The position numbers were made by a program, and so were the translations under genes. Source: Bacilli bacterium (lineage in GTDB: Bacteria; Bacillota_I; Bacilli_A; RF39; UBA660). Taken from it: a stretch of DNA of 12,133 nucleotides. How positions within the stretch are numbered: position 1 is the first letter of the stretch; every line of letters starts with the position of its first letter. The notes below the pieces were generated by a model, which was given only the letters and a program-made list of their open reading frames with translations, made no database searches and had not been told where the DNA came from. The stretch is from NCBI GenBank assembly GCA_028685445.1, contig JAQUDY010000020.1:1-12133 (forward strand), in the 5' to 3' direction. Below, in pieces: positions 1 through 4,319 of this stretch.

Positions 1-1468
1 CAAATTCATCGCCTATACTTGTACCAAAAGCGGTTATTAAACTTCTTATTTCTTCATTTCCTAAAATTTTATCTAATCTTGATTTTTCTACGTTTAATAT
101 TTTTCCTTTTATTGGAAGAATAGCTTGAGTTTTAGGGTTTCTACCAAGTTTTGATGACCCCATAGCAGAATCCCCTTCTACTATAAACAATTCTCTTTCT
201 AAAGGATCTTTACTAGAACAATCTGCCAACTTTCCCCACTGATTAGTTAAATCAAGTCCACCTTTTGTTCGAGATAATTCTCGTGCTTTTTTTGCAGCTA
301 AGCGTGCATGAGAAGCCATTAATGATTTATCTAAAATTTGTTTTGCTACATCAGGGTTTTCCATTAAGAATCTTTCTAAACCTTCACCAAAAATATCTGA
401 TGCAATTTTTCTTACTTCCGTATTTCCTAAACGCCCTTTTGTTTGCCCTTCAAATTGAGGATTAGGATGTTTACAAGAAATTACAATTGTTAATCCTTCG
501 CGGACATCATCTCCTGTTAAAGATTCATCGTTTTCTTTTAAAAATTTGTTTTTACGAGCATAATTATTTATTATTCTGGTTAGTGAGTTTCTAACTCCTT
601 CTTCATGTGTTCCCCCATCTCCTGTGTTTATATTATTTACAAAAGATAATGTTGAATTATTATAGGATTCGTTGTATTGGAAGCTTACTTCTATAGATAT
701 TTCTTCCTTTACGCCTTCAATATAAACTATTTCTTCATGAATAGGTCGATGGTTTCTATTTAAATAAATAATGTATTCTTTTAACCCGCCATTATATAAA
801 AATTCTTCTTTTTTACTTTCAATTTCACGGTCATCTACCAAAATGATCCTTAATCCTTTATTTAAAAATGCTAATTCTCTTACCCTATTTTTTAAAATTT
901 CATAATCAAAAATTGTTGTTTCTTGAAATATTTCAGGATCCGGTTTAAAAGTAACTGTTGTTCCTGTTCGTTCTTTATCACACTTTGCAATTACTTTTAA
1001 TGGTTCAAGAGCTTTTCCACCATTTTCAAAACGAATAAAATGAACTTTTTCGTTTTGATAAATTGTTACTTCTACAAATGAACTTAAAGCATTTACAACA
1101 GAAGCTCCTACTCCATGTAATCCACCAGATACTTTATATCCTCCACCACCAAATTTTCCTCCTGCATGCAAAACAGTATAAACAGTTTCTACAGTTGAAA
1201 GACCTGTTTTCGAGTGTATTCCTGTGGGTATCCCACGCCCATCATCTTTTATTGTAATAGAGTTATCTTTATTAATTATTATTTCAATATCATCACAGTA
1301 TCCAGCTAAAGCTTCATCTATAGCATTATCAACTATTTCCCATACTAAATGATGTAAACCTCTACCACTTGTTGTACCAATATACATACCTGGTCTTTTT
1401 CGAATAGCTTCTAATCCCTCTAAGACTTGAATATCTTCTTCATTATATTTCATTTCATTTTTATTCAT
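1..1468 (-). CDS. gyrB: DNA gyrase subunit B, 3'-truncated by the window edge
   Basis: ATPase subunit of DNA gyrase, which with GyrA introduces negative supercoils. The reading frame is open from the ATG at 1468-1466 to base 1 (489 codons); I translated it through and found no frameshift. It shows the GHKL ATPase elements ([38 protein letters not shown]), the transducer-region motif [29 protein letters not shown], and the TOPRIM start VEGDSA at about residues 430-435, then [12 protein letters not shown]. The last visible residues are GDEF; the rest of TOPRIM and the C-terminal GyrA-binding part, roughly 150 residues, lie outside. A strong SD (GAGGTGG) sits just before the ATG, and the start overlaps the recF stop by 8 bp, implying translational coupling. 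One oddity is Met436, where family members usually have Gly (EGDSAGGS). ParE is the alternative, but the position after recF favours GyrB. Confidence 0.96.
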
Positions 1469-2558
1469 AATTTTCCACCTCAATTTTTTTTGTAGTTAAT
1501 TTAAATATTTTACTATTAGATAATGTTTTTTGATCCAAATAATCTAAATCTGTGGTAGTTATAAATATTTGGATATTTTTTTTAAAGAAACGAATGATTC
1601 TTTTTATTTTTTCTTTATCTAATTCACTAAAAAGATCATCTAATATTAAAATAGGCATTGTTTTGGTTTTTTGATAAAAAATACTAACTTCTGATAACTT
1701 AAATGATATGATTGCGTTTTTTTGTTCACCTTCTGACAAAAAATCTTTTGCTAAATACTCATTATAATAAAAAATAAAGTCATCTAAATGAATACCATAA
1801 TGTGTTTTTCCATAATTTAAATCTCTACTAAAATTTTTTTGATATTTTTTAACTAAAGATTCTTTTGTTTCTTCGTTATAATCAGATATGTAATTAATAA
1901 ATAAACCTTCTTTTTTTGTTATTTTTTTAAAATTAATATTTATGTTTTCATTTATTAAATTTATATAATCTTTACGAATATTAAAAATTTGAATACCATA
2001 ATCTATTAACTTTTCAGTTAGTATATTTAAAAAATTTGTTGGTATCATACTATTTATCAACATTGATTTTAAATAACTATTTCTTTGTTTCAATACTTTA
2101 TTGTAATTTGATAAAAGTTTTAAATATGTGTTGTCCAATTGAGAAATTTCCATATTTAATAGCTTTCTTCGAATACTAGGACTATCTTTTATCATTCTTA
2201 AATCCTCTTGGTTAAATAAAATAACATTTATTTTTGATATATAATCACTAATTTTATTAACTTGATTATTATCGATAAAAGCTTTTTTACCTTGTTGATT
2301 TAAAATTATTTTATATGTGTTTTTATAGCGATTTGATATTATACCTATTATTGATGTTGTATCACTTTCTGTATTAATCAAAACTGAATCGTCATATGTT
2401 CTAAAAGATTTAGTTAATGCTAAATAATAGATTGCTTCTACTATATTTGTTTTCCCAAGGCCATTATTTCCTATTATAATATTTTTTGTTTTAGAAAATT
2501 CTAAATTAAGTGATTTAAAACTTCTGAAATTACGCATTTCTAAATTTAATATTTGCAT
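1461..2558 (-). CDS. recF: DNA replication and repair protein RecF
   Basis: ABC/SMC-type ATPase that, with RecO and RecR, helps load RecA at single-strand gaps and stalled forks. The 365 residues match the family's usual length. Visible elements: N-terminal LRNFRSF-like segment ([11 protein letters not shown]), Walker [10 protein letters not shown] at residues 30-38, the RecF-typical [17 protein letters not shown] at 119-135, the signature loop LSEGEQK at 274-280 (the usual RecF form is SxGQQ), and Walker B plus D-loop [12 protein letters not shown] at 303-314. The central helical arm is rich in Lys, Asn and Ile, as expected from base composition. The start ATG follows an AGAGGG SD. A 101-bp gap separates it from the upstream ComK-like gene and carries its own extended -10 promoter, so recF-gyrB can probably be transcribed apart from dnaA-dnaN. 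The stop lies inside the gyrB start region. Confidence 0.97.
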
Positions 2559-2589
2559 TTAAAACCCTCTTTTAAGACCTATAATAATA

Positions 2590-2622
2590 AAATAGGTATA
2601 TTGAGTACACCTATACCTATTT
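2590..2622. repeat. 11-bp perfect inverted repeat, candidate operator of recF-gyrB
   Basis: On the plus strand the arms are AAATAGGTATA (2590-2600) and TATACCTATTT (2612-2622), separated by 11 bp. The dyad begins two bases downstream of a consensus extended -10 (2625-2633), so it covers the expected transcription start and early leader of recF. That position favours a DNA operator bound by a dimeric regulator over a terminator, and the stretch after it on the minus strand (TATTATTATAGG) is not a clean T-run. A leader hairpin in RNA is the alternative, although the predicted start would lie within one arm. Confidence 0.6.
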
Positions 2623-2624
2623 AA

Positions 2625-2633
2625 ATTATAACA
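2625..2633 (-). promoter_or_regulatory. Extended -10 promoter for recF-gyrB
   Basis: The minus strand reads TG-T-TATAAT, a perfect extended -10 (TGnTATAAT). The -35 position 17 bp upstream (2648-2653) reads TTTAAA, which is weak but tolerable for extended -10 promoters. The predicted start near 2618 gives a leader of about 60 nt to the recF ATG. Confidence 0.6.
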
Positions 2634-2634
2634 C

Positions 2635-2669
2635 AAAACAATGCTTTTTTAAAGGAATTTTATTGTTTT
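2635..2669 (-). terminator. Possible weak terminator at the end of the comK-like gene
   Basis: Arms AAAACAAT (2635-2642) and ATTGTTTT (2662-2669) form an 8-bp stem that includes the comK-like stop codon. The 19-nt loop contains a small inner CTTT/AAAG stem. On the minus strand the distal arm ends in TTTT and then GTG, so the U-tract is poor. It also overlaps the spacer of the recF promoter. Weakly supported. Confidence 0.3.
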
Positions 2670-3109
2670 TTAGATCTTTTTTTTATAGCTGATTCAAGCA
2701 ATGCAGCTCGCAATATTTGATTTTTTAAAATATTTTCAGAAATTGATAATTCTAATTTTTCTTTATTTAAAAACTCTAATATTATTTTGTCTTCTTTTAA
2801 ATAATATTTATTTATATTATTTAAACTTATCCAACTACATTCTTTTAATCTAGGAGAAGTAGTTGGAAAAAAAATAACATTATTTTCCTCAGAGACTATT
2901 ATTGGTACTTTATAGTTAATACCTGTTAATGCTGTTGCTCCTTTTTGTCTACCTTCCATAGTACTTCCATAATACTTACAACTATTATCCATAATTTTAG
3001 AAACTGGTTTTTCTAAAATGAAACAATCTTTCCCTTCATAGACAATAGATTGATTATAATTATAAGGTAAAACTGCTAATGTTTTATCATTAATTTCATA
3101 TTCCTGCAT
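2660..3109 (-). CDS. ComK-family transcription factor, short form
   Basis: Resembles ComK, the competence master regulator that binds AT-boxes (AAAA-N5-TTTT) and activates DNA-uptake genes in Bacillus and relatives. The likeness covers the whole core: YEINDKTLAVLP (4-15), DNSCKYYGSTMEGRQKGAT (41-59; B. subtilis has DRSCRFFGSSYAGRKAGT), VPIIVSEENNVIFFPTTSP (68-86), CSWISLNNINKY (91-102) and NQILRAALLE (130-139; B. subtilis NQVYRTAWLR). At 149 residues it is about 40 shorter than B. subtilis ComK and ends right after that last core helix. It therefore lacks the C-terminal tail that in B. subtilis carries the MecA-binding motif and activation function. It occupies the dnaN-recF slot where Bacillus has yaaA. 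The start follows a very strong SD (GGGGGTGATC) held in a hairpin. The family call is firm; a role in competence is inference, and it could act as a DNA-binding repressor or on a different regulon. Confidence 0.88.
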   Translation of the reverse strand: MQEYEINDKTLAVLPYNYNQSIVYEGKDCFILEKPVSKIMDNSCKYYGSTMEGRQKGATALTGINYKVPIIVSEENNVIFFPTTSPRLKECSWISLNNINKYYLKEDKIILEFLNKEKLELSISENILKNQILRAALLESAIKKRSKKQ

Positions 3110-3128
3110 CTGATCACCCCCTGACCAG
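3110..3128 (-). promoter_or_regulatory. Ribosome-binding site inside a 7-bp hairpin, comK-like gene
   Basis: The mRNA reads CUGGUCA-GGGGG-UGAUCAG directly before the AUG. The outer heptamers pair over seven positions (one G-U pair), leaving five G in the loop. The SD run GGGGGUGAUC matches the 16S anti-SD complement GGAGGUGAUC at 9 of 10 positions and lies half in the loop and half in the 3' arm. This is a plausible on/off element for translation and a conspicuous G/C patch in AT-rich surroundings. Confidence 0.55.
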
Positions 3129-3133
3129 TTACT

Positions 3134-3142
3134 CTTATAACA
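3134..3142 (-). promoter_or_regulatory. Candidate extended -10 upstream of the comK-like gene
   Basis: The minus strand reads TG-T-TATAAG, five of six in the -10 plus the TG extension, and closely resembles the recF promoter (TGTTATAAT). No good -35 lies 16-18 bp upstream. Transcription from here would begin near 3127, inside the 5' arm of the SD hairpin. Confidence 0.35.
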
Positions 3143-3148
3143 TTTTTT

Positions 3149-3176
3149 TTTGTAGAATATTGTAGAATATTGTCAA
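3149..3176 (-). promoter_or_regulatory. Candidate sigma-A promoter of the comK-like gene
   Basis: A perfect TTGACA (3176-3171) is followed after 16 bp by TACAAA (3154-3149, four of six). The predicted start is near 3142, giving a leader of about 33 nt that contains the complete SD hairpin. The 10-bp tandem repeat lies within the spacer and -10. Confidence 0.45.
3151..3173. repeat. Tandem 10-bp direct repeat in the comK-like promoter
   Basis: TGTAGAATAT occurs twice without a gap (3151-3160 and 3161-3170), followed by a partial third copy TGT that runs into the -35 box. The period is close to one helical turn, as expected for a protein binding site read on one face. No known operator was recognised. 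Confidence 0.6.
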
Positions 3177-3180
3177 AAAA

Positions 3181-3203
3181 AATTAAAAATTGAATTTTTA
3201 ATT
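3181..3203. promoter_or_regulatory. Palindrome with a ComK-type AT-box; possibly also the dnaN terminator
   Basis: Perfect dyad with 11-bp arms around one central base (3192), immediately after the dnaN stop. At its heart lies AAAA-TTGAA-TTTT (3186-3198), a perfect AAAA-N5-TTTT AT-box, just upstream of the TTGACA of the comK-like promoter. B. subtilis ComK activates its own gene through such boxes, so autoregulation is plausible. On the minus strand the dyad is followed by eight T, so it may instead or also end dnaA-dnaN transcripts, though an all-AU stem is weak. A second AT-box was not found, and chance is a real possibility at this base composition. Confidence 0.4.
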
Positions 3204-4319
3204 TTAATATGTTTTTATTGGCAAAATTAATTGAATTAATGATTCATCTTTTGTTGATTTTAAAATTATTGGTTTAGTATCTGTGTTTAATAAAATTAAT
3301 AACTCTTCTTCTTCAAAAGTTTTTAATGCTTCTAGCATATATTTAGAACTAAATGAAATAGATAAATCTTTTGAATCATTTTTGTTAATTGTAACAGTTT
3401 CTTCTACTTTTCCTATTTCACTTGCATAAGATGATATCATTAATGTTTTTTCTGCTGTTTCCATTTTTACAATGTTTTTATCTTTGTTCTGTGTCAATAA
3501 AGCCGCACGATCAATGGCATGATAATATTCAGATAAAGTTGTTGTTAATATTATTTCAAAATCAGTTGGTATTAAATTTGATGTATTTGGGTAAGAACCG
3601 CTTAATAAATTAGATTGAAAACTGTAATTATCGTATTTAAATAATATTTTGTTAATAAATGGATGAATTTCCACATTACCTTCTAGAGACAATAATTTGT
3701 CTAATTCATTTATATTTTTTCCTGGAATCACCAAATCAAATGATTCATATTCTTCTGAGAGGATAAAAGTCTTTTTTGCTAATCTATAAGAATCAGTTGC
3801 AATACACTCAAGTATATTGCCATTTACTTTAAAATTAATTCCAGTTAATAACGGTCTTGATTCTTGAGTTGAAACAGCAAAGATTGTTTGATTAATTATA
3901 TTTTTTAAATCTTTACTTTCAATAATAATTGGTTTTTTGATTTCTTCTAATGAAATATGTGGATAATCCTCTAGATTTAAACAATTTAAATTAAAAATTG
4001 TATTTTCTGTACTAATAATTATTTTTAAACCATCAACAACTTCTATATTAATATCAGTATTTGGTAACTTTCTTATTATTTCTAATAAATATTTACTTTG
4101 AATTATTATACTTCCTGTTTTTTCTATATTTTTAATTTTTTCTTTTGGAATGATAGTTTTAATAGTTAAGTCACTATCGCTTGCAGTTAAATATAATCCT
4201 TCTTTAGTTAAATCAAATCTAACTCCATTTAATATAGGAATTATATTTCGTGGAGAAATAGCTCTCATTACATTTGTTAAACTTCCTAATATTTCATTTC
4301 TTTCTATTAATAATTTCAT
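3204..4319 (-). CDS. dnaN: DNA polymerase III beta subunit (sliding clamp)
   Basis: Ring-shaped homodimer that tethers DNA polymerase III to the template and recruits repair polymerases, ligase and mismatch-repair proteins. The 371 residues match the family. The N-terminus MKLLIERNEILGSLTNVMRAISPRNIIPILNGV and the C-terminus LILPIKTY (B. subtilis LILPVRTY) are diagnostic. In between, SRPLLTGINF, ATDSYRLAKK and the third-domain FSSKYMLEALKTF are typical clamp segments. The start follows an AAGAAGG SD. It is transcribed with dnaA across a 117-bp spacer that contains DnaA boxes, so origin complexes could affect its expression. The stop directly abuts a palindrome, and the ComK-like gene follows 94 bp downstream. 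Confidence 0.98.
   Translation of the reverse strand: MKLLIERNEILGSLTNVMRAISPRNIIPILNGVRFDLTKEGLYLTASDSDLTIKTIIPKEKIKNIEKTGSIIIQSKYLLEIIRKLPNTDINIEVVDGLKIIISTENTIFNLNCLNLEDYPHISLEEIKKPIIIESKDLKNIINQTIFAVSTQESRPLLTGINFKVNGNILECIATDSYRLAKKTFILSEEYESFDLVIPGKNINELDKLLSLEGNVEIHPFINKILFKYDNYSFQSNLLSGSYPNTSNLIPTDFEIILTTTLSEYYHAIDRAALLTQNKDKNIVKMETAEKTLMISSYASEIGKVEETVTINKNDSKDLSISFSSKYMLEALKTFEEEELLILLNTDTKPIILKSTKDESLIQLILPIKTY

Follow-up and report, generated by a model that had tools for sequence, protein, structure and literature searches.

Tandem Spo0A-box-like repeats precede an origin-proximal comK gene in the UBA660 family of uncultured Bacilli

The window—the whole stretch of 12,133 nucleotides analysed here—carries an origin region in which dnaA, dnaN, comK, recF, and a partial gyrB run leftwards, whilst rnpA, yidC, jag, mnmE, mnmG, and rsmG run rightwards (Table 1). 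Between dnaA and rnpA there are sites resembling DnaA boxes, and gyrB, mnmE, mnmG, and rsmG were identified from the sequence. The product of comK is full-length, with residues 2–146 aligning to positions 2–151 of the 152-position PF06338 profile, and has 281 homologues at E ≤ 1e-3. A PDB sequence search returned no solved relative of ComK, and an NCBIfam search of the product returned no ComK model, the sole return being a sub-threshold EF-P match. The original prediction, made from the letters of the window, was of a ComK-family regulator lodged between dnaN and recF. Profile search bears out the family and shows the product to be full-length, and no second ComK match occurs in the window's own genome (917 kb in 126 contigs, 87.9% complete), in agreement with a single copy; the position also holds when relatives are surveyed, as described below.

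Table 1. Features of the comK locus in the window
Feature	Position	Strand	Evidence or remark
recF, downstream neighbour of comK	1461-2558	-	Pfam PF02463 and place before gyrB
Candidate extended -10 TGTTATAAT of a separate recF promoter	2625-2633	-	From sequence; function inferred
comK, 149 aa	2660-3109	-	Pfam PF06338, 146.4 bits (cut-off 22.3), E 6.9e-43
Ribosome-binding site GGGGGTGAT of comK	3113-3121	-	Read from sequence
Extended -10 TGTTATAAG of the comK promoter	3134-3142	-	TGnTATAAT consensus of 107 comK upstream regions
Repeat 3, Spo0A-box-like TTCTACA, one mismatch to TTCGACA	3151-3157	-	11 bp before the -10 hexamer
Repeat 2, Spo0A-box-like TTCTACA, one mismatch	3161-3167	-	21 bp before the -10 hexamer; overlaps the -35 region
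Repeat 1, Spo0A-box-like TTTGACA, one mismatch	3171-3177	-	31 bp before the -10 hexamer
Hairpin and T-run after dnaN, terminator-like, weak, AT-only	3178-3205	-	Folding, -4.8 kcal/mol
dnaN, upstream neighbour of comK	3204-4319	-	Pfam PF00712/PF02767/PF02768

In Bacillus, a gene of this type turns on DNA uptake; here its hosts are a large family of uncultured bacteria (UBA660), many of them from animal guts, which we take to belong to the order RF39; one named relative, Candidatus Ventrenecus, is placed by NCBI under Bacteria incertae sedis. A ComK match occurs in 136 of 145 sampled family genomes (practically one genome per genus), in 274 of 288 genomes sampled from the order, all listed under the same family, and in 167 of 395 genomes of the class. 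Comparison of 99 family loci—a non-random set comprising the 30 with the best ComK scores and others selected by hand among the hits, in part according to Spo0A and SpoIVA status—places dnaN upstream and recF downstream of comK in 82, with neither neighbour in six and the remaining 11 truncated at a contig end or one-sided. Both neighbours are likewise present in 73 of 80 named loci, these being the best-scoring 80 of 296 and overlapping in part with the family genome set; neither is present in one, and six are cut or one-sided. All four genomes examined from the window's own genus have the order dnaN-comK-recF. Twenty loci were fetched from nine further families in the class; comK was re-found in 19, and in none of these do dnaN, recF, dnaA, or gyrB lie near comK within the reach of the search, which was about 2.5 kb or up to the contig end. 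The slot is hence a trait of the family and not of a single genome, as seen from 82/99 loci inside against 0/19 outside. No description of a dnaN-comK-recF placement was found in the open-licence literature of PubMed Central.

The gap between dnaN and comK contains a terminator-like hairpin with a T-run in 64 of the 72 gaps among the named loci (criterion: −3.5 kcal/mol or better), and comK possesses its own conserved promoter. Read-through from dnaA-dnaN, through which the original prediction had supposed that comK might respond to DnaA, is thus unlikely. Expectation-maximisation alignment of 107 distinct comK upstream regions yields a family promoter of up to three tandem TTCGACAWWW repeats followed by an extended −10 element, TGnTATAAT; the repeats stand 11, 21, and 31 bp ahead of the −10 hexamer, and the middle one is the strongest. 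Exact TCGACA is present in 63 of these regions, whereas 200 Markov shuffles gave 1.5 on average and 5 at most; the reverse complement is present in 5 regions. Of the 34 spacings between neighbouring T[CTA]GACA words, 29 equal 10 bp (17 cases) or 20 bp (12 cases). The comK promoter has no TTGACA spaced 17 bp from the −10 element, the −35 place being occupied by the strongest box. TTCGACA is found 47 times in 8.1 kb of dnaN-comK gaps and not once in 9.4 kb of comK-recF gaps; it occurs 11 times in 32.2 kb of rnpA-dnaA gaps and seven times in 11.3 kb of dnaA-dnaN gaps.

Within the window, the triple array (3151-3177) has no second match, and none of 200 shuffles contains one. It scores 18 of a possible 21, the highest shuffle bin listed being 17 (0.03%); a score of 15 is reached by 0.2% of shuffled regions. 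The four genomes of the window's own genus score 15, 16, 18, and 19. No array was found upstream of comK in other families (19 genomes, scores 10–13). Scores were obtained for 98 of the 99 family loci, one having too little upstream DNA, and of the six comK genes that lie outside the slot, those of G026 (17) and G072 score at least 15, those of G005 and G117 score 14, and those of G039 and G130 score 12. The interpretation first offered for the locus stands as to place and family, but it missed the Spo0A-box array of the promoter. The repeats were also considered as DnaA boxes, a candidate that is ruled out, the origin regions having TTATCCACA, TTATCAACA, and TTTTCCACA instead. A G-rich stretch recurs upstream of comK in the named loci. 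On the far side of the gene, the comK-recF gap (window 2585-2633) contains TGTTATAAT and then a hairpin, AAATAGGTATA...TATACCTATTT, of −10.5 kcal/mol, with a like arrangement in some named loci; this hairpin is perhaps a recF leader.

Read on the other strand, the family repeat TTCGACA becomes TGTCGAA, the Spo0A box, in which Spo0A contacts G2, C4, and G5 (PMC3485338). In the strongest repeat, information content is highest at three columns, C, G, and C (1.5, 1.2, and 2.4 bits), the complements of those three bases; each box of the window lacks one of the contacted bases. Across the 145 genomes, tandem pairs at up to one mismatch number 241 sites, spread over 92 genomes, whereas the reversed control gives 5; 187 sites remain once the outlier genomes G092, G097, and G143 are removed, and the window's own genome has no tandem pair at this stringency. 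Of these sites, 30 were sampled, and a downstream gene was parsed for 19 but not for the other 11. Seven of the 19 precede a membrane sensor kinase of ~410 aa (four called by Pfam and three by resemblance), four precede spo0A (two by Pfam, two by resemblance), and two precede comK; the others precede one agrB, one NUDIX gene, one dnaA, one sigma-factor-like gene, and two unassigned genes. When spo0A itself is taken as the starting point, the 220 bp upstream contain exact TTCGACA at 22 of 28 parsed loci and a match at one mismatch at 27 of 28, two of 30 loci not being parsed.

Spo0A is the master regulator of sporulation. Recognised by a Spo0A_C match, it is present in 134 of 145 family genomes, including the window's own. 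There the protein has both receiver and DNA-binding domains (Spo0A_C 142 bits, L222), box-like words lie upstream of its gene, and its recognition helix reads TTTSRVERAIRHAIEVSW; the solved Spo0A-DNA chain 1lq1 has TTASRVERAIRHAIEVAW, a difference of one residue among 13, in the context SRVERAIRHAIEV(S/A)W. The gene directly before this spo0A (L222:147-950) codes for a protein with a receiver domain and, below threshold, a weak Hpt match; it may be a fused phosphorelay component. Of the 145 genomes, 123, again including the window's own, have the sporulation marker SpoIVA, and the notion that the family is non-sporulating was rejected on that count; the order RF39 has been predicted to be able to sporulate (PMC10868615).

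Eleven of the 145 genomes have no Spo0A match, and these divide into six with SpoIVA and five without. The six SpoIVA-bearing genomes have comK array scores of 15–21, and their missing Spo0A is probably due to assembly gaps; in G087, a receiver-like open reading frame with a box ahead of it runs off the contig end (L208). The five genomes with neither protein (G038, G113, G115, G116, and G130, the last of these probably lacking SpoIVA) score 11–13, which is the chance level. The two groups differ (one-sided Mann-Whitney p 0.004), as do the 69 genomes with full Spo0A and SpoIVA from the same five (Mann-Whitney p 0.003). The triple array is not present throughout: of the 69, 41 reach at least 15 and 20 lie at or below 13, and G102, with a full Spo0A, scores 10. 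Four of the 98 scored loci, with split or paralogous Spo0A matches, were kept apart as ambiguous (scores 16–19). The comK array and Spo0A thus tend to be lost or altered together, as far as can be judged by comparing genomes.

Among genomes without SpoIVA, several retain a pared-down Spo0A. In G096, G125, G057, G059, and G082, Spo0A_C is found in proteins of ~120–157 aa with no receiver detected nearby; G055 and G036 have a degenerate receiver within Spo0A, G043 has a Spo0A fragment, and the Spo0A of G005 is full-length but diverged. The ERxxR recognition helix is intact in G096, G125, G055, and G036, in which the arrays score 20, 18, 18, and 16, and is altered in G059, G057, G082, G043, and G005, in which they score 12, 13, 15, 12, and 14. 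The association between helix state and array has a Fisher p of 0.008 across these nine genomes, with a threshold that was set after seeing the data. The state of G043, which is absent from the recognition-helix alignment, was read separately, and G137, G033, G042, and G022 were left out of the comparison because their comK is missing or fragmentary or their Spo0A match is probably a paralogue. Two of the promoters with an altered helix carry other words: 10-bp repeats of AATCGCC in place of the usual box in G057, and three repeats of TCGACT or TCGACC in G082. A single tandem pair was found in each of G096 and G055, and it lies just upstream of comK; at up to one mismatch, none was found in G125, G036, G057, G059, and G043, and two were found in G082. 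These patterns fit co-evolution of the pared-down Spo0A with the comK promoter, and likely Spo0A sites at comK appear to persist in several lineages without spore formation. By eye, several of the short or receiver-degenerate spo0A genes (L287, L289-L293, and L296) come directly after the end of a triosephosphate isomerase-like gene.

Uptake-type genes accompany comK in the window's own genome, as had been anticipated: comEC, two comEA-like genes, a PilB-like T2SSE ATPase of the pilus type, a PilC-like T2SSF protein, and a prepilin peptidase are present, and a prepilin-like match falls below the cut-off. The two comEA-like genes (SLBB and HHH) are adjacent and precede comEC (L172:6015-7153). 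ComEC is found in 129 of 145 family genomes. DprA (PF02481), which had been named among the genes to be sought, is absent from the window's own genome at its 87.9% completeness. Three of the 145 family genomes have a match, one of them strong, and the same search is positive in 11 of 14 control genomes. An AT-box regulon had also been envisaged and is not seen: AAAA-N5-TTTT pairs, the sites that ComK binds, also at its own promoter, reach a score of at least 15 of 16 in 9.3% of the 97 comK regions, a slight excess over the 3.1% of shuffles, and upstream of pilB in 0% of 18 regions against 1.4% of shuffles (13 of 31 pilB loci not being parsed). Upstream of comEA, the 17 parsed regions (of 20 loci, three not being parsed) reveal no obvious shared motif by eye and no Spo0A box. 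Many PilB-like genes (L062-L091) have a conserved TATTATATAATA promoter upstream, followed by a conserved word near GCTAGTC.

From the DNA alone, it is probable that comK in the UBA660 family forms a transcription unit of its own next to the origin and is controlled directly by Spo0A. In such a scheme, phosphorylated Spo0A would bind the boxes side by side along one helical face and thereby switch comK on, and ComK would then drive the DNA-uptake genes. Since the best box sits at the −35 place and TTGACA is lacking at normal spacing, the promoter should need an activator, for which Spo0A~P is the candidate; that the effect is activation rather than repression is inferred from this geometry alone. 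The box closest to the −10 element may in turn close the promoter once Spo0A~P is abundant, as happens in Bacillus subtilis. In some SpoIVA-less lineages, Spo0A would have lost its receiver and retained a DNA-binding domain that still serves comK. A bolder extension, which we hold only tentatively, is that Spo0A in the non-sporulating lineages has become a phosphorylation-independent DNA-binding competence switch, with the comK promoter as its main or only job, and that uptake proceeds free of DprA, for nutrition or through RecFOR.

Were Spo0A instead a repressor of comK, ComK would be active only in growing cells before sporulation. The third repeat, lying between the −35 region and the −10 element, could indeed block RNA polymerase, and two of the five Spo0A sites at B. 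subtilis PcomK repress (PMC3297582); however, the overlap of the strongest repeat with the −35 region and the lack of TTGACA at 17 bp suggest activator dependence, and we consider repression unlikely. Direct repeats spaced by 10 bp are typical of OmpR-type regulators, and the array might on that ground belong to such a protein, or to ComK itself, with the co-occurrence of Spo0A being coincidental. ComK does regulate its own gene in B. subtilis (PMC3297582), but ComK boxes of the B. subtilis type are hardly in excess here. Moreover, the repeat matches the Spo0A box letter for letter and precedes spo0A at 27 of 28 loci at one mismatch, and the array fades where Spo0A is gone though ComK remains, all of which makes a different binder very improbable.

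A further explanation concerns the place of the gene rather than its promoter, namely that the position serves origin-proximal dosage, with stalled or repeated initiation raising the copy number of comK. The gene does lie some 3 kb or less from the origin region, its place is conserved in the family (82/99), and replication stress has been linked to the origin-proximal comCDE of Streptococcus pneumoniae (PMC8394987). The conserved order may nevertheless merely reflect a stable origin cluster, the promoter bears a specific regulator array rather than depending on read-through, and comK persists off the slot in at least six of 99 genomes; hence, dosage is an improbable reason for the location, and control by Spo0A remains the preferred account of the promoter.

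Spo0A control of comK is already known from B. subtilis, in which Spo0A~P both activates and represses the gene by direct binding at five sites, three positive and two negative, with up to two mismatches (PMC3297582). The UBA660 promoter resembles PcomK in having Spo0A-type sites with mismatches. It differs in that its boxes are tandem, 10 bp apart, all facing the same way, and set at fixed distances from an extended −10 element; it differs also in the position of comK between dnaN and recF and in the receiver-less Spo0A of some relatives. The Spo0A regulon set out in PMC3485338 has the core TGTCGAA, an auto-regulated spo0A, and boxes within roughly 100 bp of start codons, and the family shares the core box, the box-preceded spo0A, and the closeness to start codons; the 10-bp tandem arrays at comK and at the sensor kinase, seen among the 30 sites sampled of 241, set the family apart. 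With the wider ComK family (PF06338), the gene shares a full-length domain and single copy; it departs in its genomic place and in the presence of uptake genes with dprA nearly absent. As in S. pneumoniae, a competence regulator lies close to the origin, although here it is ComK, unrelated to ComDE, with a Spo0A-box promoter (PMC8394987 for S. pneumoniae).

As far as the open-licence part of PubMed Central has been searched, three features are new: the family-wide dnaN-recF place, a promoter with three boxes in tandem, and its retention alongside a receiver-less Spo0A. The findings suggest that Spo0A control of comK is not peculiar to B. subtilis and also exists in a remote branch of the Bacilli whose members are uncultured and have reduced genomes, there taking a simple tandem-box form legible from sequence. 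If the receiver-less cases hold, they would reveal which Spo0A duty selection keeps once spores are abandoned, and the sharing of one regulator between competence and sporulation would become a question testable by comparison. The family is also marked out by ComK and an uptake channel with almost no DprA.

G092, G097, and G143 have 20, 22, and 12 tandem Spo0A-box sites, respectively, far above other genomes, and this excess is possibly a repeated element. The ~410-aa membrane sensor histidine kinase has its tandem box 33–55 bp before the start codon (L189, L203, L215, and L216; probably also L197, L204, and L205), which makes it, on sequence grounds, a candidate self-reinforcing Spo0A kinase. 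In one genome, a tandem box lies 84 bp upstream of agrB (PF04647, L195:820-1416), hinting at peptide signalling under Spo0A control. Spo0A binds at the B. subtilis origin, and in two relatives (L202 and L206), tandem boxes lie near DnaA boxes or upstream of dnaA.
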